DNA of 64,000 bases from Faecalibacterium sp. I4-1-79. Its GTDB lineage: Bacteria; Bacillota; Clostridia; Oscillospirales; Ruminococcaceae. The DNA lies in contig NZ_CP094467.1 in NCBI RefSeq assembly GCF_023347235.1, forward strand, positions 2,604,001-2,668,000. Reading direction: 5' to 3'. Made by a program: the position numbers and the translations under genes. Position 1 is the stretch's first letter; each line of letters begins with the position of its first letter. Shown one piece after another: positions 22,877 to 48,818 of the stretch. The notes beneath the pieces were generated by a model, which saw only the letters and a list, made by a program, of their open reading frames with translations, had not been told where the DNA came from and ran no database searches.

Positions 22877-22903
22877 ACTGCTCAATCGGCTTCATCGTGG
22901 GGA
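22877..22903. repeat. Attachment site copy 1 (lysS 3' core)
   Basis: A 27-bp copy of the last codons of lysS (begins ACTGCTCAATCGG, ends CGTGGGGA), identical to 39875-39901 and 47309-47335. It separates remnant X from element 1. Confidence 0.9.
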
Positions 22904-23020
22904 GCTTGACTGGTGGTGATTTATAGCTGTTTACAAGTGTTCATAAGCCTTTGTTTGTGCAAGATAAAAAGGTCTTATTTTTCGCAACTCTACGCAACTG
23001 TTTACAGCTATTCTCAAATT

Positions 23021-23053
23021 GGTGGTAAGTCAGTGGTAAGGCTGGTGGTAAAC
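23021..23053 (+). repeat. Integrase arm-type repeats of element 1
   Basis: Three GTGGTAA repeats (GGTGGTAAG at 23021, AGTGGTAAG at 23032, GGTGGTAAAC at 23044). Two more stand at the opposite end of the element (39791-39810), and TCAAATT precedes both sets. Position next to both ends and the integrase suggests arm sites. Confidence 0.65.
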
Positions 23054-24100
23054 TTATTCGTTTTCGTGAGAGTGCCAACGCTTCAAGACTTCTTCCACCT
23101 GTCCAATAAGCTGCTCCTTGTTCGGCATATACAAGACATACCGGGATGCAAAAATCTGATTCGACAAACCGCCCAGCGCATACTCGGCTGCTACGCTGTC
23201 CTTGTCGGTGCAGAGGATGATGCCGATAGGAGGATTATCTTCCGGGTCGTTGACCTCTGCGGCGTAGTAGTTCAGATACATATTGATTTGTCCGGCAGCT
23301 TCGGGCGTAAGCTTGGTGGTTTTCAACTCGATCAGCACATAGGCATGCAAAATCTTATTGTAGAACACCATATCCACATAGTAGTGGGTGTTGTTCACTG
23401 TGACACGCTGCTGTGTGCCGACAAACATAAAGCCCCGGCCAAGTTCCAGCAAGAAATCTTCGATTTGTCGCACCAGTGCTGCTTCCAAATCGCTTTCAAG
23501 GAACGGCTTTTCTTCCGGCAGTCCCAAAAACTCGAATACATACGGGTCCTTGATGATGTCCTCCGGCTTTGTGTAGTCCACACCTTTTTCAGCCAATGCT
23601 AAAACTTGTTCCTTGTTGGCATCCCCACGAGACAAGAGCAGCCGTTCAAACAGGGAACTTTCAACCTGACGTTTCATTTCACGGACAGACCAGCCAGAAT
23701 TGACCGCTTCTTTTTCGTAGAAGCTGCGCTTCTCCTTATCGGAAATGGATAACAGCTCACAGTAGTGCGACCAACTCAATTTTCCAGACACTGTCTGGAA
23801 AATTGGATAGCTGAGATAGAACTGCCGCATATTGTAAACATTCGAGCGCGAAAAGCCCTTGCCAAGCTCCTTTGTCAACGCCCTGGAAAGCTGCGATAAG
23901 GTCTTTTCACCATATGCAGCACGGATGCTGTCATTTTGTTCACAACGAACAACGATCTCACCAATCTTCCAATAAGTTGACAGCAGTTCCTGATTGACCT
24001 GCTGTGCTACATTTTTACGGGAAACTTCCAGCAGAGAACGAATCTCGCTCACTGCCGGGGCAAGAACCTGCGCTGCGAGGGTTACAGATTTATTTTCCAT
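23054..24100 (-). CDS. YhcG/DUF1016-family PDDEXK nuclease
   Basis: The 348-aa protein has an N-terminal helical DUF1016 domain (about 10-165; VNQELLSTYWKIGEIV, YGEKTLSQLSRALTKELGKG). The C-terminal PD-(D/E)XK nuclease domain shows VDMVFYNKILHAYVLIELKT (D, then E-x-K). The ATG overlaps the integrase stop by 1 bp, so the genes are coupled. The family is implicated in DNA processing and phage-defence contexts; its placement between int and att is unusual and may reflect element maintenance or defence. Length is full. Confidence 0.9.
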   Translation of the reverse strand: MENKSVTLAAQVLAPAVSEIRSLLEVSRKNVAQQVNQELLSTYWKIGEIVVRCEQNDSIRAAYGEKTLSQLSRALTKELGKGFSRSNVYNMRQFYLSYPIFQTVSGKLSWSHYCELLSISDKEKRSFYEKEAVNSGWSVREMKRQVESSLFERLLLSRGDANKEQVLALAEKGVDYTKPEDIIKDPYVFEFLGLPEEKPFLESDLEAALVRQIEDFLLELGRGFMFVGTQQRVTVNNTHYYVDMVFYNKILHAYVLIELKTTKLTPEAAGQINMYLNYYAAEVNDPEDNPPIGIILCTDKDSVAAEYALGGLSNQIFASRYVLYMPNKEQLIGQVEEVLKRWHSHENE

Positions 24101-25368
24101 CAGTCATTTTCCTCCTTTCCTTCAAATGTCGTGGTTGCAGATAAGAACTCTGCAAACTTGTCGATTTCCTTTTTCTTGAGATTTTTTGTGGCCTCAGTGT
24201 AGATGTTCATGGTAGTGGTAATATCGGCGTGGCCCAGTACGTCTTGAATGACCTTCATGTTGATTCCGGCCTCGCAAAGCCGGGTAGCGCAGGTGTGCCG
24301 CAAGGAATGGCAACTAAACTTCGGAAGCAGGACAAGGTTCTTCGGCTTAATTGTACCGCTTTCGCATTTTGCCAGCTGTTCCTCGTTGCAGTCGCGGATG
24401 ATACGGTCAATGCCTTTATTGATGGTGCTGTGATGCTGGCACTCGCCAAAACGGTTTACAAAAATAAAATCCGTATAGCCATCAATCGTCACCTTGCAGG
24501 AAATTCCAGTTTTCTTCTGATACTCTCGCTCTTGTACAAAAGCAGCCTTGACTGCCGGAGTCATAGGCACAATTCGATTTCCAGCTTCCGTTTTGGGTGT
24601 ATTGATTCCGTACAGACAACCTTTCTCCCGGTGGCTGTAATAAATCAACGTGTGATTTACACTGATTTCACCCGTATCAAGGTTGATGTCCTCCCAGCGC
24701 AAACCCGTTGCCTCACCAGCACGGAGACCACATTCCACCATCACAGTAATGATGGGAAGCCAGTGATTGTACTTCTCACTGTTTTTCAAGAAGTCCATCA
24801 ACAGCTTCTGCTGGCCTGCGGTCAGAGCCTTGCGGCGTTCGCTGTCCAGATTGTGCGTCTGCTTCAACTCTTTCAACGCATTATCGGATGGATTGATGCG
24901 GAGATACTCGTCCTCAACCGCAAAATCCAGCACCTGATGCAGCACTGTATGGATGTTCTCCACCGTTGCCACTTTCAGACGCTGCGAATCCACAAGGCCA
25001 TTGTAAAACCGCCGCACATCCGACTTTTTCAGGCTTCCGACCTTCCGCTTTCCAAACTCCGGGAATACGTACATCTTGTACATATACTCGTAATTGACCA
25101 GTGTGTTGGCTTTCAGCCCCTTTTTCAGTTGCAGCCACTGCTCGTGAATGTCATTGATGGTCGCGTTCCGCGCTTCCGAACGAATGCCATCACTGCGGTC
25201 ACGCTGAATCTCTGCTTCTTTCTCACGAAGTTCTTCCAGACTTTTGGCGTACACATTGTTGCGCTTGCCGTTTTCACTGCGCCAGCGGTACTCATACGTT
25301 CCGTTACTGCGCTGATATTCACCTTCCTTTAGAACACGCTTCTTTGAGTCTTTTCTTCTTTCTGCCAT
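24100..25368 (-). CDS. int: Tyrosine-type site-specific integrase of element 1
   Basis: The 422-aa Tn916-type integrase has an N-terminal arm-binding domain, a SAM-like core-binding domain (about 75-165), and a catalytic domain. The latter holds Arg in CGLRAGEATGLRW, HSLRHTCATRL, the GHADITTT box and the nucleophile in NIYTEAT. It catalyses integration at the lysS 3' end and excision with Xis. The start at 25368 (MAERRKDS) has GGAGG 8 nt upstream; the Met five codons earlier lacks a site. It is 38% or so like the integrase of element 2 by eye, not a recent duplicate. Confidence 0.95.
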   Translation of the reverse strand: MAERRKDSKKRVLKEGEYQRSNGTYEYRWRSENGKRNNVYAKSLEELREKEAEIQRDRSDGIRSEARNATINDIHEQWLQLKKGLKANTLVNYEYMYKMYVFPEFGKRKVGSLKKSDVRRFYNGLVDSQRLKVATVENIHTVLHQVLDFAVEDEYLRINPSDNALKELKQTHNLDSERRKALTAGQQKLLMDFLKNSEKYNHWLPIITVMVECGLRAGEATGLRWEDINLDTGEISVNHTLIYYSHREKGCLYGINTPKTEAGNRIVPMTPAVKAAFVQEREYQKKTGISCKVTIDGYTDFIFVNRFGECQHHSTINKGIDRIIRDCNEEQLAKCESGTIKPKNLVLLPKFSCHSLRHTCATRLCEAGINMKVIQDVLGHADITTTMNIYTEATKNLKKKEIDKFAEFLSATTTFEGKEEND

Positions 25369-25460
25369 CGTTATGTCCTCCATTGTTGGCAGAAAGCAAC
25401 CTACAGCTTAATCATACCATACCGCCGAGGTGCTTTCAACTGCCGACTTCATTTTTATTG

Positions 25461-25747
25461 TCAAATCGAAAATAATCGGTCAAGGTGTTCATCCAGCCTG
25501 CGGCGTTTCAGCAGCCGCTTCGTACCATTCCAGAGAACAAAGGTACAGTCCTTGGAATCGCTCATTTCGCGCAGTTTGTTGATACCAATGCCGGAATAGG
25601 CTGCGGCTTCTTCCAGCGTCAGATTGCTTTTCTCCCAAATCGGAACTTGTCGGGACTTGGTCCCTCCATCTTGCTGCGCAAGACCGTTCCGTCGCTTAAA
25701 GTCCCCACCGGGGACTTCATTGCTTCGCAAACGCGAACTTCTTTCAT
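25461..25747 (-). pseudogene. xis: Excisionase (xis) interrupted by a 92-bp insertion
   Basis: The downstream frame (PIWEKSNLTLEEAAAYSGIG to RLLKRRRLDEHLDRLFSI) is a Tn916-type winged-helix excisionase, close to the intact xis of element 2 (41395-41589). The original start (ATG at 25747 with GGAGG, MKEV) is cut off from it by 92 bp at 25649-25740, which shifts the frame. Translation from that ATG now gives an unrelated 42-residue peptide ending at 25619. No ATG or GTG with a ribosome site reopens the xis frame. Excision of element 1 may be impaired. Confidence 0.75.
25649..25740 (-). repeat. 92-bp insertion inside xis, flanked by AACTT duplication
   Basis: The pentamer AACTT stands at 25644-25648 and 25736-25740. 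Compared with the xis of element 2, everything between is extra. It contains a GTCCCCGGTGGGGAC hairpin and a second GGGACCAAGTCCC motif. It keeps a 42-codon frame open from the xis ribosome site. It looks like a miniature mobile sequence. Confidence 0.55.
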
Positions 25748-25960
25748 AGGCAAAACCTCCGTATTTTTGTTTGTAACCAGCAGACTGTAACCGCCACAGA
25801 AAACTTTTTCTACGGTGGTATGCTGGCAATTTTCTGTATTTATTTTTCTTATCGGTTACAGGTTACATGGTTACAGATAGGAAAATCACGTGGAATGATG
25901 CTGCTTTTTGGCAGATACAGGGTGTAACCAAACCTGTAACCAACTGTGTAAAATGGCCCT

Positions 25961-27304
25961 TCAAAACGGAAATCCCATCTGCTGAGCTTCTTCGTCTGTA
26001 AGTTCTACAAAACCGTCTGCCTCCACTTTTGCAGCGGTTACACGTTCCCATCCTTTCTGCACGCCATACTTCGGGTAGCGTTTGGCTGCTTTATGGGCTG
26101 TCCACCCCTTGATTTCGCCATTCACAATTCCTGCAGTCATGATCTCACAGATAGCACGGGTTTCCCACTCCGCAGGAAGATTCAGATTGCCCAGTGCCTC
26201 AGCGTAGAGCTGTTTGGAACATACCCGGTCACCCGTGTAATCCTCCAGAAACGCATAAATCATGCCCGCCTGTGTATCTTCCTGCATAAAATCTTTCTGG
26301 CAAATCTGCAAGGCTTCCTGCATGGCAGGGCTGAATGTCAGCTTATAATCACCGCTGTTGTAAATCGTCATGGCTTCTGCCCAAAGCTGGTCAATATAGG
26401 CACGGGATTCCGCTTCGTTATCCAGAATATGTACTTCAGCCTGTGTTGCATCCACCGGGATGGGGATAAAGCGGCGGTTTCCCGTGCGGTCACGGGGCAG
26501 GAAGTCCTGTCGATTGGTCGTTCCTGCAAAGACACATTGCCGCAAACGATCTGCCGGGTGTGTTTCATACGGGATTTTGTAGGTTTCTTTCTGCTTGCTG
26601 AGAAAGCTCTTGATTTCCTCGATGCTTTTGGCATTGGCAGTCGCAATCATTTCCGACATTTCCATGATCCAGTGGCCTTGCAGCTTGCGGAACACATTAT
26701 CATCGTCCATTCGCCGCAAATCATCCGAGAACCATTCATCTTTGATAGCAAGCAGCCGGAAGAAAGAGGATTTTCCTGCACCCTGCCCACCGACCAAGCA
26801 AAGCATCATTTCGAACTTGCAGCCGGGATGAAACACCCGTTTGATAGCTCCCAACAGAAAAATCTTCAAGGCTTCTGCGGTAAGCTCATCTTCTGCCGCA
26901 CCGAGAAAGCGATGCAAAGCGTGGCTTATCCGCTCTGTGCCATCCCACTTCAAGTCATTCAAGTAGTCCCGGATAGGGTGATAATGATTTTCGTTGGCAA
27001 CAATGCGAATTGCTGCAGACACCCGTTTTTCGCTGTACAGGCCATATTTTTCCATTCGGCGCAGAATGTACATCATATCGGTGTCGGTCAGTGTAGGGCC
27101 AGAACGCTGCCAGCCCATCGGCTTTACAATATCAATGCGTTCACTCAGCAGATTCAGCCGGATGGAATCTGCAAGAATCGGGTCGTTCTGCAAAACGGTC
27201 ACACAGTTTTGAATTGTGTTCTGAACACCACCTTTTTCAGCCTGCGAGAGCATTTTGCGGATGTTGGAAATGGTCGATCTCGTATTTTCGGATTCGTTGG
27301 GCAA
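25961..27304 (-). CDS. VapE-family replication ATPase
   Basis: The 447-aa protein uses a TTG start at 27304 with AAGGAGG about 8 nt upstream, overlapping the primase gene by 68 bp. The P-loop GGQGAGKSSF (about 187-196) and the downstream helicase-like motifs (HWIMEMSEM, VFAGTTNRQDFL) place it in the VapE/D5-like superfamily 3 group found in satellites and plasmids. With the CHC2 primase it probably starts replication of the excised element. The name 'virulence-associated' is historical. Confidence 0.88.
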   Translation of the reverse strand: MPNESENTRSTISNIRKMLSQAEKGGVQNTIQNCVTVLQNDPILADSIRLNLLSERIDIVKPMGWQRSGPTLTDTDMMYILRRMEKYGLYSEKRVSAAIRIVANENHYHPIRDYLNDLKWDGTERISHALHRFLGAAEDELTAEALKIFLLGAIKRVFHPGCKFEMMLCLVGGQGAGKSSFFRLLAIKDEWFSDDLRRMDDDNVFRKLQGHWIMEMSEMIATANAKSIEEIKSFLSKQKETYKIPYETHPADRLRQCVFAGTTNRQDFLPRDRTGNRRFIPIPVDATQAEVHILDNEAESRAYIDQLWAEAMTIYNSGDYKLTFSPAMQEALQICQKDFMQEDTQAGMIYAFLEDYTGDRVCSKQLYAEALGNLNLPAEWETRAICEIMTAGIVNGEIKGWTAHKAAKRYPKYGVQKGWERVTAAKVEADGFVELTDEEAQQMGFPF

Positions 27305-27833
27305 TCTGTTGAACCTCCTTCCGATGCTCGGTGAGAAAATGTCGATTCTCTATCAGATATTGGATGTAATCAGTATAATGCATGCTGGCAACAAAGCAGA
27401 GATGCAGTTCTTCCTCTGCTGACTTCGGCGCAAATCGTTTGCGCCAGTCACCCAGAATCGCGCTGCACTCGTACAATGTTTGGATTGGGTTTTGACCTTT
27501 ATATTCCACAATTTTCGGATACTGTAGTGGAAAAACAGGATTCCCCGAAAGTCCAAAATCTGCGACCAGCTTTTCCGCCGCCCGTCGCAGGGACAGTTGA
27601 AACAACTTTGCGGTAAAGTCAATAACATCACCATCCGCTCCACAGCCAAAACAGTGAAACCGGGAATCTACTTTCATGCTGGGGTTACGGTCTGTATGGA
27701 ATGGACAGCAAATCATGCTGCTGCGGTTGGGCTGAAAGTCATAGGTTTCTGCGGCCTGCCGAGTAGTGATATTCCGTTTTACGATTTCAAATAAATTGTT
27801 GTTCTTGAAAATTAACCTCCTTCTTATTTTCAA
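27237..27833 (-). CDS. CHC2 zinc-finger DNA primase (short)
   Basis: The 198-aa protein has a DnaG-type CHC2 zinc finger: CCPFHTDRNPSMKV followed by FHCFGCGADGDVIDF (about 42-75). The TOPRIM half of DnaG is absent, as in many element primases that work with a VapE or D5 partner. The start is uncertain. A TTG at 27833 opens the frame, but the best ribosome site (AAGGAGG) lies just inside it, so a rare start further in is possible. It overlaps the VapE gene. Confidence 0.82.
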   Translation of the reverse strand: MKIRRRLIFKNNNLFEIVKRNITTRQAAETYDFQPNRSSMICCPFHTDRNPSMKVDSRFHCFGCGADGDVIDFTAKLFQLSLRRAAEKLVADFGLSGNPVFPLQYPKIVEYKGQNPIQTLYECSAILGDWRKRFAPKSAEEELHLCFVASMHYTDYIQYLIENRHFLTEHRKEVQQIAQRIRKYEIDHFQHPQNALAG

Positions 27834-27915
27834 AAGTCCCTATCGGATGTGAAAGCCACCTGTGGGCTTACGCATCCGGCAGGGTTCCGGGGTGCGGGGT
27901 GGAAGACCCTGCTGA

Positions 27916-29523
27916 TTACAGGCTCATATCGTAGCTACGCTTCTTGGCTCGCGGCTGCTGTTCACGCTGCTGCACTTTTGCCGTTTCAAAGATACTATAC
28001 ACATTGGCAAGTACCGTCTGTATTTCTGTATTGCGTTCCTTAAAATAGTGGTATGTTTCATACCGTGCATCCTTTGTGCACATCAGAAGTTCTTTTTCTG
28101 CCCGGAGATCTTTCATCGAAGGGAATTTTTCGTCTAGGAAATCCCGCTTTAGAAATTGACGCGCTTCCTCGTATTTTGCAATTTCATCGAAGTGGGTTTG
28201 CCGAAAAATTTTCTTGTTAGGTGCTTTCAGAAATTCGCTATAAACAGATTTTGTAGAAAAATACTGACCCAAATGATGAATCTGCTCGTTGACCTTTTTC
28301 AGCTTGACTTCCGTGAGTTTCGCATCACTTCGAGCCGTCGTCATTTTTCGGTCAATACTCTCGGCAGCTTCATAAAGTTTTTCGTATGAATCATATCCGT
28401 GCTCTTGCACATAGAGAACGGTCTGCGCCATCTTCTGTAAATTTGAGATTTTGACTTTCTGGGCATAGGCATAGCTCTGCTGGGCTTTTACGCAATCCTG
28501 CAAATTTACAACCAGCCGGAGATTCGACTTGATGTACAGCGCATCCATAGGATCATTGACACGACACTGCTGCTTTTCTTTCTCGGCTGCGTTGCACTGA
28601 AAAAGCAGTAAAAGATGCTCACGGTCAAAACTGGTTCCCAGCGTTCTGGCAGAGATAAATTTCTCCCTGTCTGCTGGAAGGTAGCTGAATCGCCCTCGAT
28701 GGTCTTTCACCAAAATGCCGTATTCCAGCTTTAAGAGGTTTTGGAAATCCATAAAAGATGCAGATCGTTTTGCTATATCGGTAATGGCATTTCGGATTTT
28801 TTCCTTCTCCGTTTCAAAAGTCGTCTTTGCTGGTGTGAACCCATCGCCAAGAAGTTCCAGATTGGTAAGGTCCAGGTTGATCTGTCCGCACCGTTTAGCG
28901 TAATATTCCTGCTCTGAAACTTTAGAGAGAGAGGGGGAAAGCAAATCGATCTGATTCAAGTTTTCCCTCATGCAAATATCCATCAGAGATTTCTGTAAAT
29001 GTTTCAAGTAGTCTTTTGTCAGATGGTGCTTGTACCCTACCTTGCAGTCAATGGGTCGCTCCATAAAGGACTGCTTAGGTACATCCAGCTTTCGCAAACT
29101 GTTGATTACGATATGGACATGAATATTTCCGCTGCCATTGTGCCCGTCCATGTGCGTACAGACCAATGCCTGATGCCCCGGAAAATTTGCTTTTGCGTAT
29201 TCCAGTCCAAGCTCCTGTGCCCGTTTCCCCGTCAAGCAATTTTCTGTGCTGTCCCGTGGGTCAAAGCTGATGATGTAATGATGGCTTTTGATTTCATTCT
29301 TATTTTTGTTCTTCTGATATTCGCGGTTCAGCTGCTGGCAGGCCGCATCAAAGGAATAGGGTTCACAGTTCAGGCCGTCCAGATAAAACTCATCCCGCAT
29401 AATACGATTTCCGTTTTGGTCAAGGATCGGAGTTTTCCGAAGTTCGTCATGCTTGAAAATCAGATATTCCAGCGCAGCACCATAGTTGGAGCTCTTACTT
29501 GCGATGTGCTTTAAGATTGCCAT
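27916..29523 (-). CDS. Relaxase of element 1 (MOBP-like)
   Basis: The 535-aa protein has a relaxase/mobilisation nuclease domain at the N-terminus: catalytic Tyr candidate in SKSSNYGAALEY (about 9-20) and the metal-binding three-His motif HVHIVINS (about 153-160). The remainder is helical. It nicks oriT and pilots the strand during transfer. The start at 29523 (MAILKHIA) is preceded by AGGAAAG. It overlaps mobC by 29 bp. The MOBP assignment is inferred from motif form. Confidence 0.88.
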   Translation of the reverse strand: MAILKHIASKSSNYGAALEYLIFKHDELRKTPILDQNGNRIMRDEFYLDGLNCEPYSFDAACQQLNREYQKNKNKNEIKSHHYIISFDPRDSTENCLTGKRAQELGLEYAKANFPGHQALVCTHMDGHNGSGNIHVHIVINSLRKLDVPKQSFMERPIDCKVGYKHHLTKDYLKHLQKSLMDICMRENLNQIDLLSPSLSKVSEQEYYAKRCGQINLDLTNLELLGDGFTPAKTTFETEKEKIRNAITDIAKRSASFMDFQNLLKLEYGILVKDHRGRFSYLPADREKFISARTLGTSFDREHLLLLFQCNAAEKEKQQCRVNDPMDALYIKSNLRLVVNLQDCVKAQQSYAYAQKVKISNLQKMAQTVLYVQEHGYDSYEKLYEAAESIDRKMTTARSDAKLTEVKLKKVNEQIHHLGQYFSTKSVYSEFLKAPNKKIFRQTHFDEIAKYEEARQFLKRDFLDEKFPSMKDLRAEKELLMCTKDARYETYHYFKERNTEIQTVLANVYSIFETAKVQQREQQPRAKKRSYDMSL

Positions 29524-29890
29524 AATTCTTTCCTGCCATTTCTGCGACTTGCTCCCGCATTTCAAAAATACAGGAAATTGCATGGTTGATTTTTTCGAGC
29601 ATAGCGCGCGACTGGATACCGCCGCTGTTGAAGAACGCCGCGATCTGGTTCAGATTATTCCCGATGGCGGCAAACTCCCGTGTGATGGCTTCAATTTCGT
29701 CCGGGTGGACATAGAACACATACGAGGTATTCACGCGGCCTTTCATCAGCATCTGCGCTGTAAATTCAGAGAGGGTCATTCCGGCATCTTCTGCCTGCCG
29801 GTGTAAAAGTTCATGTACTACTTCTGTAACTCGTGCGGAGATTACTTTTGTCTTTACGATAGATTTCACTTTTTTCTTCGTTCTTGGCAT
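29495..29890 (-). CDS. mobC: Mobilization protein MobC
   Basis: The 131-aa protein has a ribbon-helix-helix-like N-terminus (VISARVTEVVHELLHRQAEDAG) and the MobC signature AIGNNLNQIAAFFNSGG (about 76-92). It assists the relaxase at oriT. AAAGGAGACCCC precedes the ATG. It overlaps the relaxase gene, giving the common mobC-mobA order. Confidence 0.9.
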   Translation of the reverse strand: MPRTKKKVKSIVKTKVISARVTEVVHELLHRQAEDAGMTLSEFTAQMLMKGRVNTSYVFYVHPDEIEAITREFAAIGNNLNQIAAFFNSGGIQSRAMLEKINHAISCIFEMREQVAEMAGKNYGNLKAHRK

Positions 29891-29930
29891 GGGGTCTCCT
29901 TTCCAAAATCAAGAATTTGATTTTCCCGGC

Positions 29931-30031
29931 AGTGCATCTGCACTCCGGCTGTGACCTGCTGCAGCAGGCCACCAATGGGCAAAATCATGTGATTTTGCAC
30001 GATGTGAGGGTATGGGGAGCGCAATCCCCAT
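29931..30031. other. Candidate oriT of element 1 (cluster of inverted repeats)
   Basis: Four short dyads follow each other upstream of mobC: AGTGCATCTGCACT (29931-29944), CCTGCTGCAGCAGG (29955-29968), GCAAAATCA-TG-TGATTTTGC (29979-29998) and ATGGGG-N8-CCCCAT (30012-30031). This is the usual place for oriT. From 30032 to 30600 the sequence is A/T-rich without genes and might hold the replication origin. Confidence 0.45.
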
Positions 30032-30600
30032 CAAGATGCCGCCGTGGAGAAACTGCCCGTAGGAGCGATTTCGTATACAAAGGCGAATCTTGCTCTTAAC
30101 CACTGTCCACTCTGTCCCAGCCCGTTCCTGCCCGATTTTCTCCGGCGTATTTTCCGGTAAGACGCGCAGAATGCACATTCAGTACCAGAGGTATCCTGCT
30201 GGGGTGGCTCATGCGATTTTCAAGGTGCGATGTGACTTTGTAAGGAATCGGGGAATTTCATCAGTGATACCGTAGTGAATTGGCTTACTTTTGAAAACAC
30301 TTCCTATACCCTATACAAACTTTAAGGGGTGTTTTTAAACCGGGTCTTTTGAAAATTCAAAGAAAATTCATTTTTCCAACGTTCCCCTCTACCTATAACA
30401 TTCTAAAATGGGCGTTTGGCATACAGATTTTCAAATTTTGTTGAACTACCTAATTTTAGAACATGGATTTTGTTTATTTTCCACTCATAAAACTAGCGGA
30501 AAGCCGTTTCACAAAAGATTTTGAAGGCCCCTACACTAATAGGAATCCGCGGGGCTGTTTTGGAATACAGTTTTGAAAATTTTTCAATTTAAGAAAAAAG

Positions 30601-30641
30601 AAAAACGGCAAAGCAGATAAAATCCACTTTACCGTTTTGTG
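30601..30641. terminator. Hairpin, probable terminator
   Basis: AAAACGGCAAAG pairs with CTTTACCGTTTT with one mismatch, flanked by A- and T-rich runs on both sides. It separates the A/T-rich region from the hsdS fragment. Confidence 0.5.
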
Positions 30642-30671
30642 TCGATAACGCGATACGCGTAAATTACTGTC

Positions 30672-40052: not shown

Positions 40053-40055
40053 GGC

Positions 40056-41288: not shown

Positions 41289-41394
41289 ATAAATCTCCTT
41301 TTCGCTCACAAGATGATGAAAAGGAGCCTTACACCACGAGTATACCATGGTGCAAGACTCCCTGCAACATCAAACGGTCAATTTTCACACCGCA

Positions 41395-41589
41395 TCAGAT
41401 CGAGAATGCCTTATCCAGATATTCGTCCAGCTTACGGCGTTTGATAAGCCGTTTGGTTCCGTTCCAAAGGACGAACTTGCATTCATCGCTATCGGTCATC
41501 GACCGCAGTTTATTGACACCGATCCCGGAGTATGCCGCCGCTTCCTCCAAGGTCAGATTGCTCTTTTGCCAGATAGGAACTTCTTTCAC
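41395..41589 (-). CDS. xis: Excisionase
   Basis: The 64-aa winged-helix protein reads KEVPIWQKSNLTLEEAAAYS and ends LIKRRKLDEYLDKAFSI, a Tn916-type Xis. A GTG start at 41589 has GGAGGT upstream; another GTG four codons earlier is possible. It bends DNA at the element ends and directs excision. It is intact, unlike the xis of element 1. Confidence 0.88.
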   Translation of the reverse strand: MKEVPIWQKSNLTLEEAAAYSGIGVNKLRSMTDSDECKFVLWNGTKRLIKRRKLDEYLDKAFSI

Positions 41590-41673
41590 TTGCACCTCCA
41601 CTTCCTTGTAACCGGGTGTCTGTGACCGGGCAGGAAATTTCCAGTCCTGCCCCAGACTGTTCCCGATGGGGTG

Positions 41674-42921
41674 TCAAATCTCCGAATACTCTCCCTTTGT
41701 TCGAGGTTGTGCGGTGGGCTTGTGCGTCTGCTCTGCCTGCAAGCGGTTCAGCAGTTGCAGAACAGAATCCCGTGCTTTTTCCTTGATCTGCTCCTTGCCT
41801 TTCTGCCGGACTTCCGGCTTCAGCAGGGCTTCCTGCAAACGGGCAGAGGCGGTCTGCATCGTCTTGAGGAACTTGTTCAGAATACCGTCCAGATGCTTGG
41901 CAGTGTACTCCCGTGTAGCCTGTGGTGCTTTGCGCTCCGGCGATAACACCCACTTTTTCGTGTCCTCGATCATCCGCATATCTTCCTTCCGGGTCTCAGT
42001 GCGCACTACGTCCGTCACGACCTCCACTGCCTTGTCGTAGGCCGCAGCCGAAACATCTTCCAGCAAGGTCTCCATATCCGAAACTTTCAGGGTCAGCTCG
42101 TCCAGCCTGTCCTGCTGGGCGGCAAGCTGCTCCTTTTGCTTGGCAAGGATAAAATCCTGCTTTTCCAGATACTTGCGGTTGCCGTACTCTGCTTCTTCCT
42201 CCAGATCCAGCCCATGCCGTTTTGCAATCTCGAACAGCATCTTCCGGCAGGCTGCATCAAAGGTGATCTTGCGGTTATTTCGGCGACTGAGAGACTTGTT
42301 TGGGTCAGGCAGGTCGAAGCCCAACGCTTCCAGTGCCTTTTCCTGTTGGGGAGCTAACTCGCCATACTTGTTCTCACAGTCGAACACATGACGCTCGTGG
42401 ATATGAGGTGTGCTTTCGTCCAGATGCAGCGCCCAGTCCAGCACATGAACATGGTCGCCATACTTGGCTTTGAACTCCTCGATGAACTCCGTGACGATGT
42501 TCAGCAAGTCCTCTGCCGAAGCGTGTTCGTCCAGCGTCCCAAGCTGGTAGATAGTCTCCTCCGGGCAGGTCTTGCGGCTGGATAGCAGGTCAGGAATGGA
42601 GCGGTTGCGTTCGGTGTGCCGGATCTTGGCGTTGCGCTCGTTCTGCCTTTCGATGAACTCCGAATAGTGGCTCTCGTAGAATTGCCGTTCCACATCCGAG
42701 AAGGTTGCTGCCAGATCATTCGGGTTTTGTGGGTCGAGAGCCGAACGGAAGCCATGGAAGCAGTCCCAGTAGATGTTGACCTTGGCTCGTTCGGGGTCGA
42801 TGTGCTCGCTGTTGGTGAGGTTGAAACTTCGGTCATTGTGTTTGGGGTTATAGGTGCCGTGGGTTCCGGCTCGTCCGTTGTGTCGTGTTAATTTCAGATA
42901 AACATCCCTCCATTTCAACAT
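41674..42921 (-). CDS. Relaxase of element 2 (MOBV-like, plasmid recombination type)
   Basis: The protein is about 415 aa. The N-terminal signature NGRAGTHGTYNPKHNDRSF and the metal site LDESTPHIHERHVF (HxDExTPHxH form) mark a MOBV/Pre-type relaxase. The C-terminal third is coiled coil (KEQLAAQQDRLDELTLKVSD). The start is uncertain: ATG at 42921 is the nearest in-frame Met before the conserved region, but the best ribosome site (GGAGGG) lies just inside it. The candidate oriT is upstream. Confidence 0.83.
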   Translation of the reverse strand: MLKWRDVYLKLTRHNGRAGTHGTYNPKHNDRSFNLTNSEHIDPERAKVNIYWDCFHGFRSALDPQNPNDLAATFSDVERQFYESHYSEFIERQNERNAKIRHTERNRSIPDLLSSRKTCPEETIYQLGTLDEHASAEDLLNIVTEFIEEFKAKYGDHVHVLDWALHLDESTPHIHERHVFDCENKYGELAPQQEKALEALGFDLPDPNKSLSRRNNRKITFDAACRKMLFEIAKRHGLDLEEEAEYGNRKYLEKQDFILAKQKEQLAAQQDRLDELTLKVSDMETLLEDVSAAAYDKAVEVVTDVVRTETRKEDMRMIEDTKKWVLSPERKAPQATREYTAKHLDGILNKFLKTMQTASARLQEALLKPEVRQKGKEQIKEKARDSVLQLLNRLQAEQTHKPTAQPRTKGEYSEI

Positions 42922-43149
42922 CTTGGCGGGGTGGGTGCGCAGCAGCTTTGCTGCTGAATCTGCCGCAGGCAGTGCGCCAGATAATACCCAGTAGGATATG
43001 ACGCAAGGCATCATATCACTGGGGCAAAGGACTGCGTCCTCTGCACTCTTGCTCCGGGCAAGCTGTCCAGAAAACAGCTCGTCCGGTTTTTCAGAGGGTC
43101 ATTTTGACCCTCTGATTTTGGCAAACTGTCAACCTGACACTTTGCCAAT

Positions 43150-43262
43150 ACCCCCCTATATGGCGCGTTTTTGGACAATCGCTGCGTACGTGCGTACAAA
43201 GAAAAGGCATCTGCCGCGTACGCACGTACGCAGCAAAACGCCCAAGTTCTCCTTTATAGGGG
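43150..43262. other. Candidate oriT of element 2 (three nested inverted repeats)
   Basis: The outer arms are CCCCCTATA (43151-43159) and TATAGGGGG (43254-43262). The middle arms are GGCGCGTTTT and AAAACGCC. The inner arms are a perfect 17-bp repeat (43181-43197 with 43218-43234, GCTGCGTACGTGCGTAC). A separate hairpin AGAGGGTCA-TTT-TGACCCTCT lies at about 43096-43116. The block sits between relaxase and primase genes, where oriT is expected. Confidence 0.55.
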
Positions 43263-43263
43263 G

Positions 43264-44586
43264 TCATGCCCGCCAGCTATTGGTGGTAAGGTCGGGCTGC
43301 ACAAGGGCTTCGATGCCCACAAAGCCCCGGACACGCCGCCCGGACGAGTTGACGATGTTGTTGGTGGATTCCAGATTATACCTGCGCTGGTTGGCGATCA
43401 GTGCATCGCTGAACCCTCTGGCCTTGATCGCATTCAGGCTGTTCTCCTCACACCACATCCGGTAGACCTCATACAGCTCTTTCGAGCTGGTGCAGGCATC
43501 CGCCTTCAGGCGGATGTAGCCCTCGGATTCGAGGAAATCGAACACATTGTTGTTGTCCCGCTTCACCAGTTCCCGGTTGCGCTTGGCACGGTCGCTCTCG
43601 GTGAACTGGAAGCCATTCTTCACCAGCCGCTGCAAGCCCTCAAACGCCCACAGCAGGATGCCCTCGACCTCTGCCGCCATCTTCTCGGCAATGTCCGGGT
43701 CGTCCACACGGGAGAGGGGCTTGTCCTTGGTGGTCAGGATGAGCTGACGGCGGTAGAAACCGTCCGAGCGATCATACAGAGCCTGCAGATCGCCGTTGCT
43801 GAACGCCAGCAGACGGGCGTACATCCAACCCTGATAGCTCTGCTTGCCCTTGCGCTCCAAGTCCATCTGCCCCTGCGCGGTCACGATTGACTTGACATAG
43901 TTGGTCTGGCGCAGGGCTTCCATCCGCATATCGTCGTCCACGCAGAGCAGGGTGTGCTCCAGATCGGCACGGGCAAAGCGGTTCTCCGAGATCTTGCCGA
44001 TGCTCCCATCCTTCATATTTGTACCAAATAGTTTAGACAGCACCACGCCGATCTGCGACTTACCCTCGCCGCCGCTGCCCTTGATGACCATCATGCGCTG
44101 CCCCTTGTTGCTGGGAATCAGGCAATAGCCGATGAACTCCTGCACTGTGGGAATGTCCTCCGGGTAGAGCAGGTCGGACAGAAACCGCAGCCAATGGACG
44201 GGCTGGGCGGCTTTCGGGTCATATTTGACCGGGAGCCGGTTGCGGACGATCTCCGGCTTGCCTTCCTGAAAGGTGCCGTCCAGATACAGGGTGCCGTTTG
44301 CCAGCGCAATGCGGTCGGTGACGGGTGGGAAGTCCTCCACCTGCGCTGCCAGCTTCAGCACGTCCACGACATTGCTGACTCGTTTGGCGATATTTGCGCC
44401 GATATGGTCTCGCAGCATATCGAAAATTTCACAGCGCAGGTTCATGGTGTCTGTGACCCTGCCTTCCGGGGTGAAAAATGCGCCATTCACATAGATGAGC
44501 TGGTGGGTGCTGAGAAAATCGTCACAGAAGATAGATTCGTTGAAGAATCCTTTCTTGATCCATGCGGGGGTAAAGTTGTTTCCCAT
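43264..44586 (-). CDS. P4-family primase/helicase (D5-like)
   Basis: The start at 44586 (MGNNFTPAWI) has AAAGGA about 9 nt upstream. The 440-aa protein has a D5_N-like region (about 30-140) and a superfamily 3 helicase core with Walker A GSGGEGKSQ and Walker B LLCVDDD, followed by SNGDLQALYDRSDGFYRR. It resembles the C-terminal part of P4-type replication proteins. It probably initiates replication of the excised element at the dyads just upstream (44621-44792). Confidence 0.87.
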   Translation of the reverse strand: MGNNFTPAWIKKGFFNESIFCDDFLSTHQLIYVNGAFFTPEGRVTDTMNLRCEIFDMLRDHIGANIAKRVSNVVDVLKLAAQVEDFPPVTDRIALANGTLYLDGTFQEGKPEIVRNRLPVKYDPKAAQPVHWLRFLSDLLYPEDIPTVQEFIGYCLIPSNKGQRMMVIKGSGGEGKSQIGVVLSKLFGTNMKDGSIGKISENRFARADLEHTLLCVDDDMRMEALRQTNYVKSIVTAQGQMDLERKGKQSYQGWMYARLLAFSNGDLQALYDRSDGFYRRQLILTTKDKPLSRVDDPDIAEKMAAEVEGILLWAFEGLQRLVKNGFQFTESDRAKRNRELVKRDNNNVFDFLESEGYIRLKADACTSSKELYEVYRMWCEENSLNAIKARGFSDALIANQRRYNLESTNNIVNSSGRRVRGFVGIEALVQPDLTTNSWRA

Positions 44587-44620
44587 AGGCACACGTCCTT
44601 TCTTCGGTGCTGCGGCTTTT

Positions 44621-44792
44621 CCATGTGGTCAATTTGGTCACATGGATTTTCTCTGCCGCAACAGGTGGATAAACGTCCGTTTTGGGGGTTACGGCTTTTC
44701 AATGTGGACAATTTGTCCACATTGATTTCTCATGCCACAATAGATGGATAAACGTCCGTTTTACCTCATGTAGACAAAATGTCCACATGAGG
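44621..44792. repeat. Three dyads and two direct repeats upstream of the primase gene (origin or operator)
   Basis: The dyads are 44621-44645 (arms CCATGTG/CACATGG), 44700-44724 (perfect, CAATGTGGACAA and complement about one base) and 44764-44792 (CCTCATGTAGACA with one mismatch). They share a GTGGACA/TGTCCAC core and lie 65-80 bp apart. Between them GGATAAACGTCCGTTTT is repeated (near 44666 and 44747). This resembles iterons or a multi-site operator. The rest to 45178 is without a gene I can support. Confidence 0.6.
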
Positions 44793-45178
44793 TGAATTGC
44801 CGTTCTCCCTGCATGGATTTCCTGCCCCCTTCCGGCGGCGTTTTCCGGCTCTCCTTTTCAGGGTCTTCGCCGTGTATCCCATGCAGACGGTCATGCGGTT
44901 TTCAAGGTGCAACAGGCAAAACGGCAACAAAAAAGCCGTCACAAAACAGACCAGCCCTGCCTTCACTTTTTCTGGAAGGCCATGCTAGTCGGTTATGTAA
45001 CGGCTGAAAGCCAAGATGTTCAGCCCCGTAGGGTCTGAACAAATATGTAAAAATATGTTATATTCAATTGTTGGGATAGATTACCACAAAAATCGAGCCG
45101 TGTCAACAAAAAGTTTTGAGAAAACGTCATTTTCGGCAGCTTGCAAGAAAACGCAAGAGGAATTTTGGTAAAAAGATA

Positions 45179-45211
45179 GAGGACTGGACGGTGCCAGCCC
45201 TCTTGACAAGG
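45179..45211 (+). repeat. Dispersed hairpin repeat (copy 2)
   Basis: GAGGACTGG and CCAGCCCTC around ACGGTG, then TTGACAAGGA; it matches 18917-18948 in 31 of 32 bases. In both places cargo genes begin downstream. Confidence 0.7.
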
Positions 45212-45383
45212 ATTTTTCTATAAAAGGCTAAAATATCCCGGATTGTGCATCGGGTCGGCAATATCCGTAGCGATTACACTGTAAATGTCAATTTATTTGC
45301 AATCAACCATTTTGCGTATATTGATATTTGCTACGCTTTTTGTATGATAAACGTGTAATAAATATACTCTGACAGATGGAGGT

Positions 45384-45476
45384 ATGTATGCAGAGGAACA
45401 AAGATGTACGGGGAGATTTTGCTGTATCTACCTGTTCGATGGCAGATTTAACTTGCAGCACGCTCTTTTGAGTTGA
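45384..45476 (+). CDS. Possible small peptide(s) upstream of the TetR gene
   Basis: GGAGG is followed by two overlapping ATGs. The first (45384) opens MYAEEQRCTGRFCCIYLFDG to 45476 (30 aa). The second (45388) opens MQRNKDVRGDFAVSTCSMAD to 45471 (27 aa, Cys/Ser/Thr-rich). A promoter-like TTGATA-N16-TATGAT stands upstream (about 45322-45349). They may be a leader peptide or chance frames. Confidence 0.25.
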   Translation: MYAEEQRCTGRFCCIYLFDGRFNLQHALLS

Positions 45477-45526
45477 AGGAACCGCTCTTTATGGATATAA
45501 TATTGGCAAAAGGGAGAGCGATTTCA

Positions 45527-46099
45527 GTGAAAGAAACAAGAATTGACTTAAGAACACGAAAAGTATACGATGCACTGATAGAAGCATTTGTAAAACTGCT
45601 TGCAGAAAAACAGTTTGAGGATATTACCGTAAAGGAATTGTGTGATTGCGCCCGCACGAGGACAGCAACTTTCTATAATCACTTTTCGGATAAATATGAT
45701 TTTTTCGCCTTCATGGTTAAAGAGAAACTCAGTTCTTTCATGCTGAGTTCGGACACGATCAATGAGGACGATACATTTGAAAAATACTGCATTTCCATAT
45801 TAAATAATTCTTTGGATTTTATTGAAGAACATAAACAGATGGCACAGCATATTATGACAGATAGCCTTCTGAGTATTATGATGAATTCTATTTCAAAAGA
45901 ATTTACAGATCAATTCAGAATCCGTATGGAAAGAGAGCATCTCAGAGATGTTGACCCAGAAATCATAACCCAAATGCTGATTGGTGCGATGTCGCGGTCT
46001 GCGCGTTGGTGGATGAATCGTATGTCTGTAACATCAAGGGATGAAATCGTTTCTCAATTTTCGTTGTTCCTGCGTGGCTTTATAAAATCGAGGAGGTAA
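45527..46099 (+). CDS. TetR-family transcriptional regulator
   Basis: The 190-aa protein starts at GTG 45527 after GGGAGAG (VKETRIDLRTRKVYDALIEA). The TetR helix-turn-helix is FEDITVKELCDCARTRTATF with YNHFSDKYDF. The C-terminal domain is of the TetR_C type seen in DhaS-like regulators. The oxidoreductase gene starts 3 bp after its stop, so it likely controls that gene. The region is A/T-rich relative to the element backbone, consistent with recently acquired cargo. Confidence 0.85.
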   Translation: MKETRIDLRTRKVYDALIEAFVKLLAEKQFEDITVKELCDCARTRTATFYNHFSDKYDFFAFMVKEKLSSFMLSSDTINEDDTFEKYCISILNNSLDFIEEHKQMAQHIMTDSLLSIMMNSISKEFTDQFRIRMEREHLRDVDPEIITQMLIGAMSRSARWWMNRMSVTSRDEIVSQFSLFLRGFIKSRR

Positions 46100-46102
46100 A
46101 GA

Positions 46103-47068
46103 ATGCACAGCATAATATGCAAGGAATCTGGAAACCCTGACGGAATACAGATCATCGAGACATCAATTCCGAGGCCGAGGAAAAATCAGGTTCGGGTCAA
46201 AGTTATGGCTTGCGCGTTATCGGTGTCAGACTTTAATCCGTTTTTTGAAAAGGCAGAAACAGGAAAAGTTTCTTTTTTTACAAAAATATTAACCCAGAAT
46301 AAGCCGTTTGGCGGGGATGTTTCGGGCATCATAACAGAAACAGGAAAAAGCGTAACATCACTTAAAGTTGGGGATGAAGTTTATACATCAATTGGTGTAA
46401 GCGGTGGATGCTCAGAATATGTGACTGTGAATGCCGACAGGGTGTTCCGAAAGCCATGTAATTTATCTTTCGAGGAAGCTGCGGCAATTCCAACAGCAGG
46501 AATCGTAGCAATGGAGGCTTGTAAAAAAGCTGAAGTGTCGAAAGGAAAAAAGGTTCTGATTTATGGAGCGTCCGGCGGTGTCGGTCAATTTGCACTTCAG
46601 ATTGCAAAAGCAATGGGAGCGACAGTTACAGCGGTATGCAGTACACGAAACGTGGAACGTGCATACGCAATGGGTGCAGATGAGGTAATCGATTACAAAA
46701 AAGAAGACATTGCTGACCGTGGGACGCAGTTTGATGCGATTCTTGGTGTCAACGGCAGTGTGCCGCTTGCAACTTACAAAAAGATGCTCAAAATGGGAGG
46801 CACCTATGTAGCAATCGGCGGAAAACAGGCAACAGCGGGTTTGATTTCGCCTATCTATGCGTTGGGCAGTGGAAAGAGGATGACATTTGTTTTGTATGCA
46901 TTGGCAGTAAACCATGGGCACTTGAATGCACTGAAGGACTTGGCAGAGAAAAATAAAATCAAGCCGTATGTAGAAGCCATTTATCGACCCGCTGACCTGA
47001 AAGAAACGTTTGTACAAATCAGCAAAAACCATGCTCAGGGAAAATTTGTTGTAAAAATGGATTTTTGA
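46103..47068 (+). CDS. NAD(P)-dependent alcohol dehydrogenase/quinone oxidoreductase (MDR family)
   Basis: The 321-aa protein is a zinc-free medium-chain reductase: GroES-like N-terminus (VRVKVMACALSVSDFNPF), PFGGDVSG, and Rossmann motif YGASGGVGQFALQIAK (about 153-168). It lacks the catalytic Cys/His set of zinc alcohol dehydrogenases. GAGGAGGTAAAG precedes the ATG. With its TetR neighbour it may detoxify quinones, enones or electrophiles; substrate unknown. Confidence 0.87.
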   Translation: MHSIICKESGNPDGIQIIETSIPRPRKNQVRVKVMACALSVSDFNPFFEKAETGKVSFFTKILTQNKPFGGDVSGIITETGKSVTSLKVGDEVYTSIGVSGGCSEYVTVNADRVFRKPCNLSFEEAAAIPTAGIVAMEACKKAEVSKGKKVLIYGASGGVGQFALQIAKAMGATVTAVCSTRNVERAYAMGADEVIDYKKEDIADRGTQFDAILGVNGSVPLATYKKMLKMGGTYVAIGGKQATAGLISPIYALGSGKRMTFVLYALAVNHGHLNALKDLAEKNKIKPYVEAIYRPADLKETFVQISKNHAQGKFVVKMDF

Positions 47069-47086
47069 CAGAAAACCGAAAAATCC

Positions 47087-47123
47087 GGCAGGTACACCAT
47101 CGTGGGATGGCATACCTGCCGGA
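47087..47123. terminator. Terminator near the right end of element 2
   Basis: CCGGCAGGTA pairs with TACCTGCCGG (10 bp) around a loop, followed by ATTCTGTTTT. It is the counterpart of the hairpins near the ends of remnant X and element 1. Confidence 0.75.
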
Positions 47124-47306
47124 TTCTGTTTTGCGGGCTGGTGCAGCTACTACACCAATCCGCCTATTCGATTCTTACACCACACCGCTTTGTAAGGCTC
47201 CTTTTCGGGAAAACGTCCCAAAATTGGTGTAGTTGTGGTGTAGTACCGCAGATATCGACCGAATTTCGTTTTAAAATTCATCGCATCTGCGTTTTAATTT
47301 CGCATT

Positions 47307-48818
47307 TCACTGCTCAATCGGCTTCATCGTGGGGAACAGCAGCACATCACGGATAGATGCACTATCGGTGAGCAGCATCACCAGACGATCCACGCCGAAG
47401 CCCAGACCGCCCGTGGGGGGCAGACCGTACTCCAGTGCGTTGATGTAGTCGTAGTCTACCTGTGCCTTGCACTCGGGCTCCAGCGCCTTGCGCTCGGCCA
47501 CCTGACGCTCGAAGCGGCCCTTCTGGTCGATAGGATCGTTCAGCTCGCTGAAGGCGTTGCCGTACTCGGTGCAGTCGATGAAATACTCAAAACGCTCAGT
47601 GAAAGCGGGATCATCCGGCTTGCGCTTGGCCAGCGGGCTGATCTCCACAGGGTAATCGTAGATGAAGGTGGGCTGGATCAGCTTGTCCTCCACAAAGGCA
47701 TCGAAGAACTCGGCCAGAATGGCGCCCTTGGTAGGCACCTCGGGCAGTTCCACGTTGTGCGCCTTGGCGGCAGCGATGGCATCTGCATCGGTCTGCCAGT
47801 CGTTGAAGTCCACGCCGGAATACTTCTTCACGGCCTCCACCATGGTCAGGCGCTCCCAGTGGCTCATGTCGATCTGCTTGCCCTGATACGGGATGACCAG
47901 ACTGCCGCAGATCTTGAGGGCAAGGCGCTTGTACAGCTCCTCCACCAGATCCATCATGCCGTGGAAATCCGTAAAGGCCTGATACAGCTCAATGGTGGTG
48001 AACTCCGGGTTGTGCTTGGGGTCCATGCCCTCGTTGCGGAAGATGCGGCCCACCTCGTACACGCGATCCATGCCGCCCACGATCAGACGCTTGAGGTACA
48101 GCTCGGTCTCGATGCGCAGCACCATGTCCATGTTCAGGGTGTTGTGGTGGGTGTAGAAGGGGCGTGCGGAAGCGCCGATCTCAAACGGGGTCAGGATGGG
48201 GGTATCCACCTCCAAAAAGCCCTTCTCGTCCAGATAGGCGCGGATCTCCTTCAGGATGCGGCTGCGCTTGATGAAGGTGTCCTTCACCTCCGGGTTTGCG
48301 ATCAGATCCACATAGCGCTGACGGTAACGCATCTCGGTATCGGTCAGGCCGTGGAACTTCTCGGGCAGAGGGCGCAGGCTCTTTGCCAGCAGGGTCAGCT
48401 CAGTGGCGCGCACGCTCAGCTCGCCGGTCTTGGTGCGGAACACCTCGCCCTTCACGCCGATGATGTCGCCCACGTCCAGCTTTTTAAAGGCGGCGTAGGC
48501 CTCGTCACCCAGCTCGTCGCGGCGGACGTAAAGCTGGATATCGCCCTTGTCATCGCGCAGGTGGGCAAAGCTTGCCTTGCCCATAACGCGCTTGGACATC
48601 ATACGGCCTGCCAGTGCCACCAGCTTGCCGCTGTCGGTCTCATTGGGCAGCTCCTTAAATTCTTCCTTCAGGTCGGCGGAATACGCGTCCTGCGGGAACT
48701 TGGTCAGGGTAAAGGGGTCGTTGCCGGCGGCCTGCAGGTCGGCCAGCTTCTGGCGGCGCACCTGTACCTGCTCGCTCTCGGACAGACCCGCAGCGGGGTT
48801 TTTCTTTTGCTCTTCCAT
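47307..48818 (-). CDS. lysS: Lysyl-tRNA synthetase (class II)
   Basis: The 503-aa enzyme has an OB-fold anticodon domain (about 60-150) and a class II catalytic core with motif 2 (GRIFRNEGMDPKHNPEFTTI) and motif 3 (GGLGFGVDRLVMLLTDS). It charges tRNA-Lys. It ends LLFPTMKPIEQ, and these last codons are the attachment core used by the elements on its left. The gene remains intact because each insertion restores the end. It follows greA by a short gap. Confidence 0.97.
   Translation of the reverse strand: MEEQKKNPAAGLSESEQVQVRRQKLADLQAAGNDPFTLTKFPQDAYSADLKEEFKELPNETDSGKLVALAGRMMSKRVMGKASFAHLRDDKGDIQLYVRRDELGDEAYAAFKKLDVGDIIGVKGEVFRTKTGELSVRATELTLLAKSLRPLPEKFHGLTDTEMRYRQRYVDLIANPEVKDTFIKRSRILKEIRAYLDEKGFLEVDTPILTPFEIGASARPFYTHHNTLNMDMVLRIETELYLKRLIVGGMDRVYEVGRIFRNEGMDPKHNPEFTTIELYQAFTDFHGMMDLVEELYKRLALKICGSLVIPYQGKQIDMSHWERLTMVEAVKKYSGVDFNDWQTDADAIAAAKAHNVELPEVPTKGAILAEFFDAFVEDKLIQPTFIYDYPVEISPLAKRKPDDPAFTERFEYFIDCTEYGNAFSELNDPIDQKGRFERQVAERKALEPECKAQVDYDYINALEYGLPPTGGLGFGVDRLVMLLTDSASIRDVLLFPTMKPIEQ
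47309..47335. repeat. Attachment site copy 3 (native 3' end of lysS)
   Basis: The core covers the last eight sense codons and part of the stop of lysS. Insertion here keeps the reading frame (stop TGA here; TAA in the displaced copies). Confidence 0.9.

Follow-up and report, generated by a model that had tools for sequence, protein, structure and literature searches.

What becomes of an essential gene when integrative elements accumulate at its 3' end? For elements that insert at the 3' end of a housekeeping gene, the usual view is that the gene product stays essentially as it was. The question is raised here by a 64,000-nucleotide stretch (the window) of the genome of Faecalibacterium sp. 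I4-1-79 (contig NZ_CP094467.1, positions 2,604,001 to 2,668,000), in which two elements, denoted E1 and E2, lie in tandem behind lysS, the gene for lysyl-tRNA synthetase (LysRS). We consider it very probable that these are serially integrated elements placed at a domain junction of LysRS, a position at which integration truncates the enzyme, splits it or exchanges its C-terminal tail.

According to the mechanism we propose, E1 and E2 would be integrative elements of the mobilizable kind, whose Tn916-type tyrosine integrases would recombine the element site with the conserved lysS sequence encoding (L)FPTMKP. Each insertion would leave one copy of a core sequence at lysS and another at the far side of the element, and the right end of the element would provide the last lysS codons and the stop codon. 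As the end of lysS would thereby be restored, the target would persist and elements could pile up, the newest presumably standing next to lysS. In hosts whose LysRS carries a tail, of which there are many in this bacterial order, the core would be a domain junction and insertion would sever the tail, with three possible outcomes: the tail may be missing, which is the case in the window and the 14-member clade to which it belongs; it may be retained as an open frame past the element, often with a start codon supplied by the element; or a foreign tail may take the place of the native one, so that a chimeric LysRS of full length stands next to the native tail that was severed.

Core repeats at the 3' end of lysS

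The array in the window consists of the following features.

22709..22876, plus strand: E0, what is left of the right end of an older element of the E2 type, past core copy 1
22877..22903, plus strand: core copy 1, on the far side of E1
22904..39874, plus strand: element E1, 17 kb, bounded by core copies 1 and 2
24100..25383, minus strand: E1 tyrosine integrase (PF00589 and PF02920)
39875..39901, plus strand: core copy 2, between E1 and E2
39902..47308, plus strand: element E2, 7.4 kb, bounded by core copies 2 and 3
40056..41348, minus strand: E2 tyrosine integrase (PF00589 and PF02920)
47141..47308, plus strand: right end of E2, supplying the end of the lysS stop codon
47309..47335, plus strand: core copy 3, within lysS
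47307..48818, minus strand: lysS, 503 amino acids (aa), ending in MKPIEQ and a stop, without the C-terminal tRNA_bind tail found in 12 congeners

An initial annotation of this DNA had described a 27-bp core, equal to the end of lysS, in three copies. All three were recovered, identical over 27 bp and in one orientation; 100 shuffled versions of the window yielded no match, and in the organism's own genome (3.23 Mb, single contig) a 25-base pattern with up to three mismatches was found at these three positions only. Copies 1 and 2 are identical over 39 bp (22865-22903 and 39863-39901), and copy 3 differs from them in the adjacent base, which gives lysS the stop codon TGA and not TAA. On the lysS strand the core contains TTCCCCACGATGA and fits TTCCC[gac]AC[ag]ATGA, the core of lysS-integrating elements of the vanD/vanG type.

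Both elements carry arm-like repeats at their ends. The motif TGGTGGTAA is present five times in the window, four of them at the two ends of E1 (23020 and 23043; 39791 and 39802), and 8 of the 12 copies of GGTGTAGT lie at the ends of E0 and E2, including positions 47149, 47226 and 47237 at the right end of E2 and 40031 and 40043 at its left end. E0 carries this same motif and forms part of a 195-bp direct repeat, 92% identical (22709-22903 and 47141-47335), which had escaped the initial annotation. Because E0, core included, matches the right end of E2 at 92% and the same type of end belongs to E2-like elements of congeners, we read it as the remnant of an older element; the repeat rules out that core 1 adjoins native chromosome. 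Ends of the E0 kind stand directly after lysS in seven genomes (G009, G018, G003, G012, G013, G030 and G002; 85-94% to the E0 copy), and E2-like elements lie between two cores at lysS in four (G018, G002, G012 and G013). E2 would be the newest insertion in the window, provided that the lysS-proximal core is always the one used.

The initial annotation had proposed a comparison with related genomes to find the empty site. The congener G009 provides it, with lysS, one core, the window's own flank at 94-98% identity, and neither E1 nor E2; G008 and G015 likewise have one core, and no such integrase was present within the 20 kb read. Together with the exact cores, the full-length Tn916-type integrases and the arm-like repeats, this site supports the tandem site-specific integration suggested earlier.

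Recurrence was assessed in 31 genomes of the genus, window included, of which 28 have a readable lysS end (16 short, 12 long), with integrase relatives defined by E<=1e-60 to the E1 or E2 integrase. Such integrases occur in 10 of the 31 genomes: in nine of the 16 with a short lysS, in none of the 12 with a tailed one, and in one of the three whose lysS end was not read (G027). Eleven of the 17 integrase matches lie within 27 kb downstream of lysS. Two within about 27 kb downstream of lysS are also found in G016, G018 and G028, and G016 has three core copies (0-3 mismatches); tandem arrays thus recur in the genus, and the elements may still be moving.

Two further observations concern the surroundings of the site. 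Relatives of a repeat of about 140 bp at 18773-18910 are located just past lysS or its arrays in G008, G013, G016, G018 and G028. In G014 and G029 (loci L041 and L042), lysS has another ending, MRPESN followed by the stop, and the downstream DNA is near-identical by eye despite differing lysS genes; perhaps this ending marks another element type at the site.

Split lysS genes and severed tails

The residues encoded by the core, (L)FPTMKP, close the catalytic domain of LysRS. In 12 of the 27 congeners with a readable lysS, the protein continues past the core by some 150 residues, reaching into a tRNA-binding domain of the PF01588 family, and the ten complete tailed proteins measure 651-665 residues from the match start. 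The catalytic model ends at residue 498; a low-complexity linker leads from the core to the tail, with PF01588 at residues 560-655 (P0004). The initial annotation had held that lysS is preserved each time. For E1 and E2 this stands, since the LysRS of G009, without them, has the same end and is, after rounding, 100% identical; for the history of the site it does not, the core being internal to lysS in these 12 congeners and in many other genera.

A tail search over 396 genomes of the family returned 18 tails whose frames do not exceed 280 aa, from which three contig-cut fused genes (G221, G318a and G073) were removed before counting. All 15 remaining severed tails begin at the core (0-3 mismatches to 14 bases), with no catalytic residues upstream; the two with three mismatches each, G263 and G199, match their own genus's FPTLRS version of the core. 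In 11 of these 15 genomes lysS stops near residue 503, and in the others it lies at a contig edge (G263, G409), is full-length (G199) or is fragmentary (G318). Other families of the order contributed 15 further short-frame tails, a sample that excludes tails in frames of 329-536 aa (G482, the second copy of G460, and G503), G537 and G600, whose coordinates match G705 and G707 and which were taken as the same genomes, and G285, already in the family set. Of the 14 that are informative, twelve begin cleanly at the core, with no more than one mismatch; the core of G460 has diverged, G434 does not fit, and the contig-cut G610 is uninformative. Overall, 27 of 29 informative severed tails fit a split at the core.

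Several loci show the complete arrangement. In G188 a single contig carries a lysS ending in YPTMKPKE and a stop, an 8-kb element and a severed tail, whose linker is nearly that of the intact gene of the same-genus G096. The G188 element (L150) bears integrase, Zot-like and Mob_Pre genes; it may be a filamentous-phage-like prophage, so that unrelated element types would use one site. Pseudoflavonifractor capillosus An386a (G705) and Pseudoflavonifractor sp. An85 (G707) each carry, on a single contig, lysS, two tandem stretches, three cores and a severed tail. Here lysS ends in FPTMKPLD and a stop at core 1, core 2 follows after 99 kb and 148 kb, respectively, core 3 after another 13 kb and 21 kb, and the severed tail at core 3 comprises 155 codons counted from the core. 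Both genomes have integrase relatives some 200 bp from core 1; near core 3 such relatives occur in G707, and G705 has only a short fragment there. The same-genus G432 has a fused gene with a matching linker, so that fused relatives with matching linkers are available for three split genes (G096/G188, G240/G171 and G432/G705). Judged from the sequences, the two elements and three cores of the window correspond to the G705/G707 layout minus the tail.

Element ends supply the lysS stop codon and often also a start codon in front of the severed tail. One element type, ending AGGAGG...ATGGAATC, provides what we call the MES leader, in which the distance from the ATG to the core is exactly 93 nt in 32 of 34 loci in named genomes. 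The leader runs in frame into a severed tail at 12 of the 34 loci and into a short MKP...stop end at 19; one is cut off and two read into other sequence. The tail count is 12 and not 13 since the L219 frame (316 aa) is unrelated, and the contig-cut L216 was not scored as a short end. A selected coding role for the MES leader is ruled out by a pN/pS of 0.70 in frame versus 0.57 and 0.62 in shifted frames. Unconstrained and present without a tail, it has not obviously evolved for rescue.

Starts were compared across 19 unrelated leader types, a set that does not include G434 or the contig-cut G610. Of these leaders, 10-11 offer an in-frame ATG, as against 8-9 of the 38 shifted frames (p 0.007-0.031, according to which representative is taken), and 6-7 combine an ATG with a Shine-Dalgarno sequence, as against 0-1 of the shifted frames (p no higher than 0.0041). 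The first test used one representative per cluster, the first-listed except for G285, chosen over G210, which has no in-frame ATG. Repeated with first members, it gave 10/19 versus 9/38 (p=0.031) and, with Shine-Dalgarno, 6/19 versus 0/38 (p=0.0007); over 1000 random choices, with the MES cluster sampled at 6 of its 13 members, p was at most 0.031 and 0.0041.

These results bear on the proposal that severed tails are dead remnants of a dispensable extension, with leaders and starts incidental, which we hold to be somewhat unlikely. It would account for the disappearance of the tail without trace in the window clade, and for the MES leader being unconstrained and present without a tail. However, the tail domains of the 15 family severed tails contain no stop codons, in-frame ATGs with Shine-Dalgarno sequences are enriched over shifted frames, and the ratio of nonsynonymous to synonymous substitution rates (dN/dS) between severed tails and fused relatives is 0.02-0.33 (12 of 15 pairs computable), similar to the 0.06-0.33 of four fused-fused pairs, although much of this divergence may be older than the split. 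Freed tails may be translated and may work.

Exchange and probable loss of the tail

A replaced tail was observed in G500, the only genome compared in this way against tailed congeners. It carries a full-length lysS and a separate severed tail, whose domain shows 100% identity to the fused tails of the same-genus G472, G618 and G550 and whose linker matches. The tail borne by lysS is foreign, 74% identical to the native one and 97% to a severed tail found in G630, which belongs to another family. Some 150 bp past this foreign tail there is a tyrosine integrase, and at the core the nucleotide identity between G500 and G618, taken in 25-codon windows, drops from 0.88 to 0.53. The foreign tail probably arrived with the element. 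A full-length lysS together with a severed tail is also present in G199, G630, G438, G459 and G690, the severed tail lying 66 kb (G630) and 86 kb (G199) downstream on the same strand in the first two. In G690, Enterocloster alcoholdehydrogenati C5-48 (L192, L226 and L253), the severed tail stands behind the MES leader and the fused LysRS is intact.

Moreover, tail and enzyme appear uncoupled on a wider scale: across 60 fused LysRSs tail identity and catalytic identity correlate with a rho of 0.10, against 0.25-0.75 for catalytic segments and the rest of the catalytic domain. G141 and G246 share 57% identity in their catalytic parts and 97% in their tails (tail dS 0.43). An origin of every such mismatch in elements is ruled out by the pairs G055/G235 and G038/G230.

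As regards the window clade, its genome has no LysRS tail, its two PF01588 matches lying in open frames of 667 and 809 aa that are probably MetRS and PheT. The other 15 genomes with a short lysS likewise have no close LysRS tail, only a copy of 35-38% identity in frames of a size fitting MetRS. TIGR00499 ends where the window LysRS ends; the short protein is thus of canonical bacterial length, and the tail is therefore a lineage-specific addition. It is also found in the nearby genera of G084, G139 and G274 and is lacking in those of G102, G060, G170 and G048. Separately, tail-like domains 50-71% identical to the LysRS tail are present in other open frames of about 650-765 aa (G178, G246, G705, G707 and others). 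These frames are probably MetRS, from which the LysRS tail may have come.

A quick, unrooted tree of 112 catalytic domains, made of the fetched fused genomes, the readable split genomes and part of the tail-less ones, has the split state arising 11 times in 11 rows, 10 of them forced by well-supported branches; these change counts are not frequencies. Within the genus, short forms occupy three places: the 14-member clade (SH-aLRT 88), G010 and G020. It is likely, though not proven in an unrooted tree with undersampled tail-less genomes, that the window clade lost its tail and did not simply never gain one.

An alternative is that elements integrated one after another, in the ordinary way, at a lysS 3' end that is natural and unchanged; the tail of the congeners would then be an unrelated gain, and nothing would have been cut in this lineage. 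The canonical length of the window LysRS and its identical end in G009 fit this explanation, and known lysS elements are said, in the available text of their reports, barely to alter the protein. Nevertheless, we consider it improbable: the tail is present in 12 of 27 readable congeners and in three of the nearby genera named above (though not in the other four), the same core splits tailed genes elsewhere, and short forms occur at three places within the genus. Finally, duplication of one segment by homologous recombination or transposition, although the 195-bp repeat past core 1 indicates that some flank was duplicated too, is a most improbable source of the three cores, given that the copies bounding each element share only 27-39 bp, that each interval contains an integrase of its own and, at its two ends, arm-like repeats that match, and that E2-like elements lie between two cores at lysS in four other genomes.

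A number of observations weigh against the reading of element-driven truncation, splitting and exchange. Canonical bacterial LysRS has no tail, so the window clade may simply never have gained one. Most split genomes are drafts, with many tails near contig ends, and G434 departs from the core rule. Six of the 17 integrase matches are not within 27 kb of lysS, lying 66 kb away (G029), on other contigs (four) or in G027, where lysS was not read. In the window genus alone, tail and catalytic identity correlate with a rho of 0.79 (12 proteins); the apparent swap between G055 and G235 breaks inside the tail, about 50 codons past the core, and G038 and G230 show no excess of tail dS, the values being about equal in both domains. 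Furthermore, the MES leader is free of coding constraint and has no tail after it at 19 of its 34 loci, and 8-9 of the 19 leader types lack an in-frame ATG.

Element content and known lysS elements

Besides their integrases, the two elements carry the following genes.

25461..25829, minus strand: E1 excisionase, Tn916-Xis type (PF09035)
25961..27833, minus strand: E1 replication genes, VapE-like (25961-27304) and CHC2 zinc finger (27237-27833)
27916..29890, minus strand: E1 mobilisation genes, MobA/VirD2 relaxase (27916-29583) and NikA/MobC-like protein (29495-29890)
31804..36547, minus strand: E1 cargo, with histidine kinase, response regulator, Spa1_C lantibiotic-immunity-like protein and ABC ATPase
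41674..43014, minus strand: E2 putative relaxase, with an LDESTPHIH motif spotted by eye
43264..44592, minus strand: E2 P4-family primase (TIGR01613)
45473..46099, plus strand: E2 cargo, TetR regulator
46103..47068, plus strand: E2 cargo, zinc-type dehydrogenase/quinone reductase-like protein

E1 combines an integrase and flanking direct repeats with a relaxase (MobA, with a MobC-like partner), the features of an integrative mobilizable element (IME). The initial annotation had called both elements mobilizable; each indeed has an integrase and E1 a relaxase, and for E2 the relaxase is putative only, its motif being one that we take to be Mob_Pre/MobV-like and the protein having no Pfam, NCBIfam or PHROG match. 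In agreement with the lack of transfer machinery noted earlier, no type IV secretion family was found among the open reading frames (ORFs) scanned in either element, a set in which the small ORFs of E1 were not all included. PF02920 in both integrases and the PF09035 excisionase of E1 are traits of the Tn916 family. No Tn916 conjugation module was present among the ORFs scanned, and the clustering of integrase relatives near lysS (11 of 17 within 27 kb) differs from the low-specificity integration of Tn916.

The E1 cargo also includes two ABC2-like permeases that score below the Pfam cut-off, and the whole resembles a lantibiotic-immunity module composed of a two-component system, a Spa1_C protein and an ABC transporter. 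A YhcG/DUF1016 PD-(D/E)XK nuclease gene (23054-24100) lies between the integrase and core 1, and a fragment of a type I restriction specificity (HsdS-like) gene occupies 30672-31343. Towards the right end of E1, 37775-38626 is probably a truncated ABC transporter piece and 38767-39009 is a C-terminal fragment of an iron-dependent repressor; the two look like decayed cargo.

The initial annotation had regarded a synthetase terminus as a less common target, a view that the literature corrects. Islands and integrative and conjugative elements (ICEs) carrying vanD (Tn6711-Tn6713, ICEVREfm_vanD) integrate in lysS of enterococci and other genera, according to the available parts of two reports (PMC8301612, PMC10765050), and streptococcal ICEs, including a vanG-family ICE of S. 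suis, use a tyrosine integrase and the lysS 3' end in the text accessible from two others (PMC4701971, PMC7168690). As described there, the vanD islands share with E1 and E2 the target gene, the 13-bp repeat TTCCC[gac]AC[ag]ATGA and a conserved site, and the Norwegian ones likewise lack conjugation genes, whereas they measure 112-160 kb and have their repeat 17 bp from the lysS end; those parts of the reports describe no gene splitting, tandem arrays or tail replacement. The streptococcal ICEs resemble the window elements, in the portions available, in their tyrosine integrase, direct repeats (13-17 bp) and slightly altered protein end, but they are conjugative and their effect on the protein is given as very small (PMC4701971). 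Like IMEs in general, the window elements pair an integrase with a relaxase (in E1; putative in E2) and no transfer machinery was seen; unlike them, they are serially stacked at a LysRS domain junction.

PF01588 domains of the Trbp111/EMAPII type are appended to MetRS and PheRS, with free-standing and fused forms known (PMC11286949); the LysRS tail is of the same domain family, and the part of that source available does not describe a bacterial LysRS fusion. Nothing on splitting stands in the accessible text of PMC5053989 and PMC6295017. Fusion, splitting or swapping of a LysRS tail was not found in searches of the open-licence literature, judged from titles and the beginnings of abstracts, an absence that is weakly supported.

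In conclusion, the serial insertion is genuine and belongs to a type described before, at a site that is already published. What is new is the nature of this site, a junction between synthetase domains where elements truncate an essential enzyme, split it or exchange its tRNA-binding domain. That the elements naturally shuffle the domains of an essential tRNA synthetase is a proposition we regard as evenly poised; by a single recombination at the catalytic/tail junction they would remove the tail, free it as a protein of its own with a start encoded by the element, or replace it by a foreign copy borne at the element's end, and the tail would thereby move between families independently of the enzyme. 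The same short conserved stretch forms a harmless terminus in some hosts and the boundary between two domains in others, and integration at it therefore repeatedly rebuilds an essential enzyme. The split and fused genes offer numerous natural replicates in which to study the role of the appended domain and whether it works in trans, and the system bears on the evolution of element ends able to repair the genes that the elements cut. The locus also shows a multi-element array able to keep growing at one essential gene.

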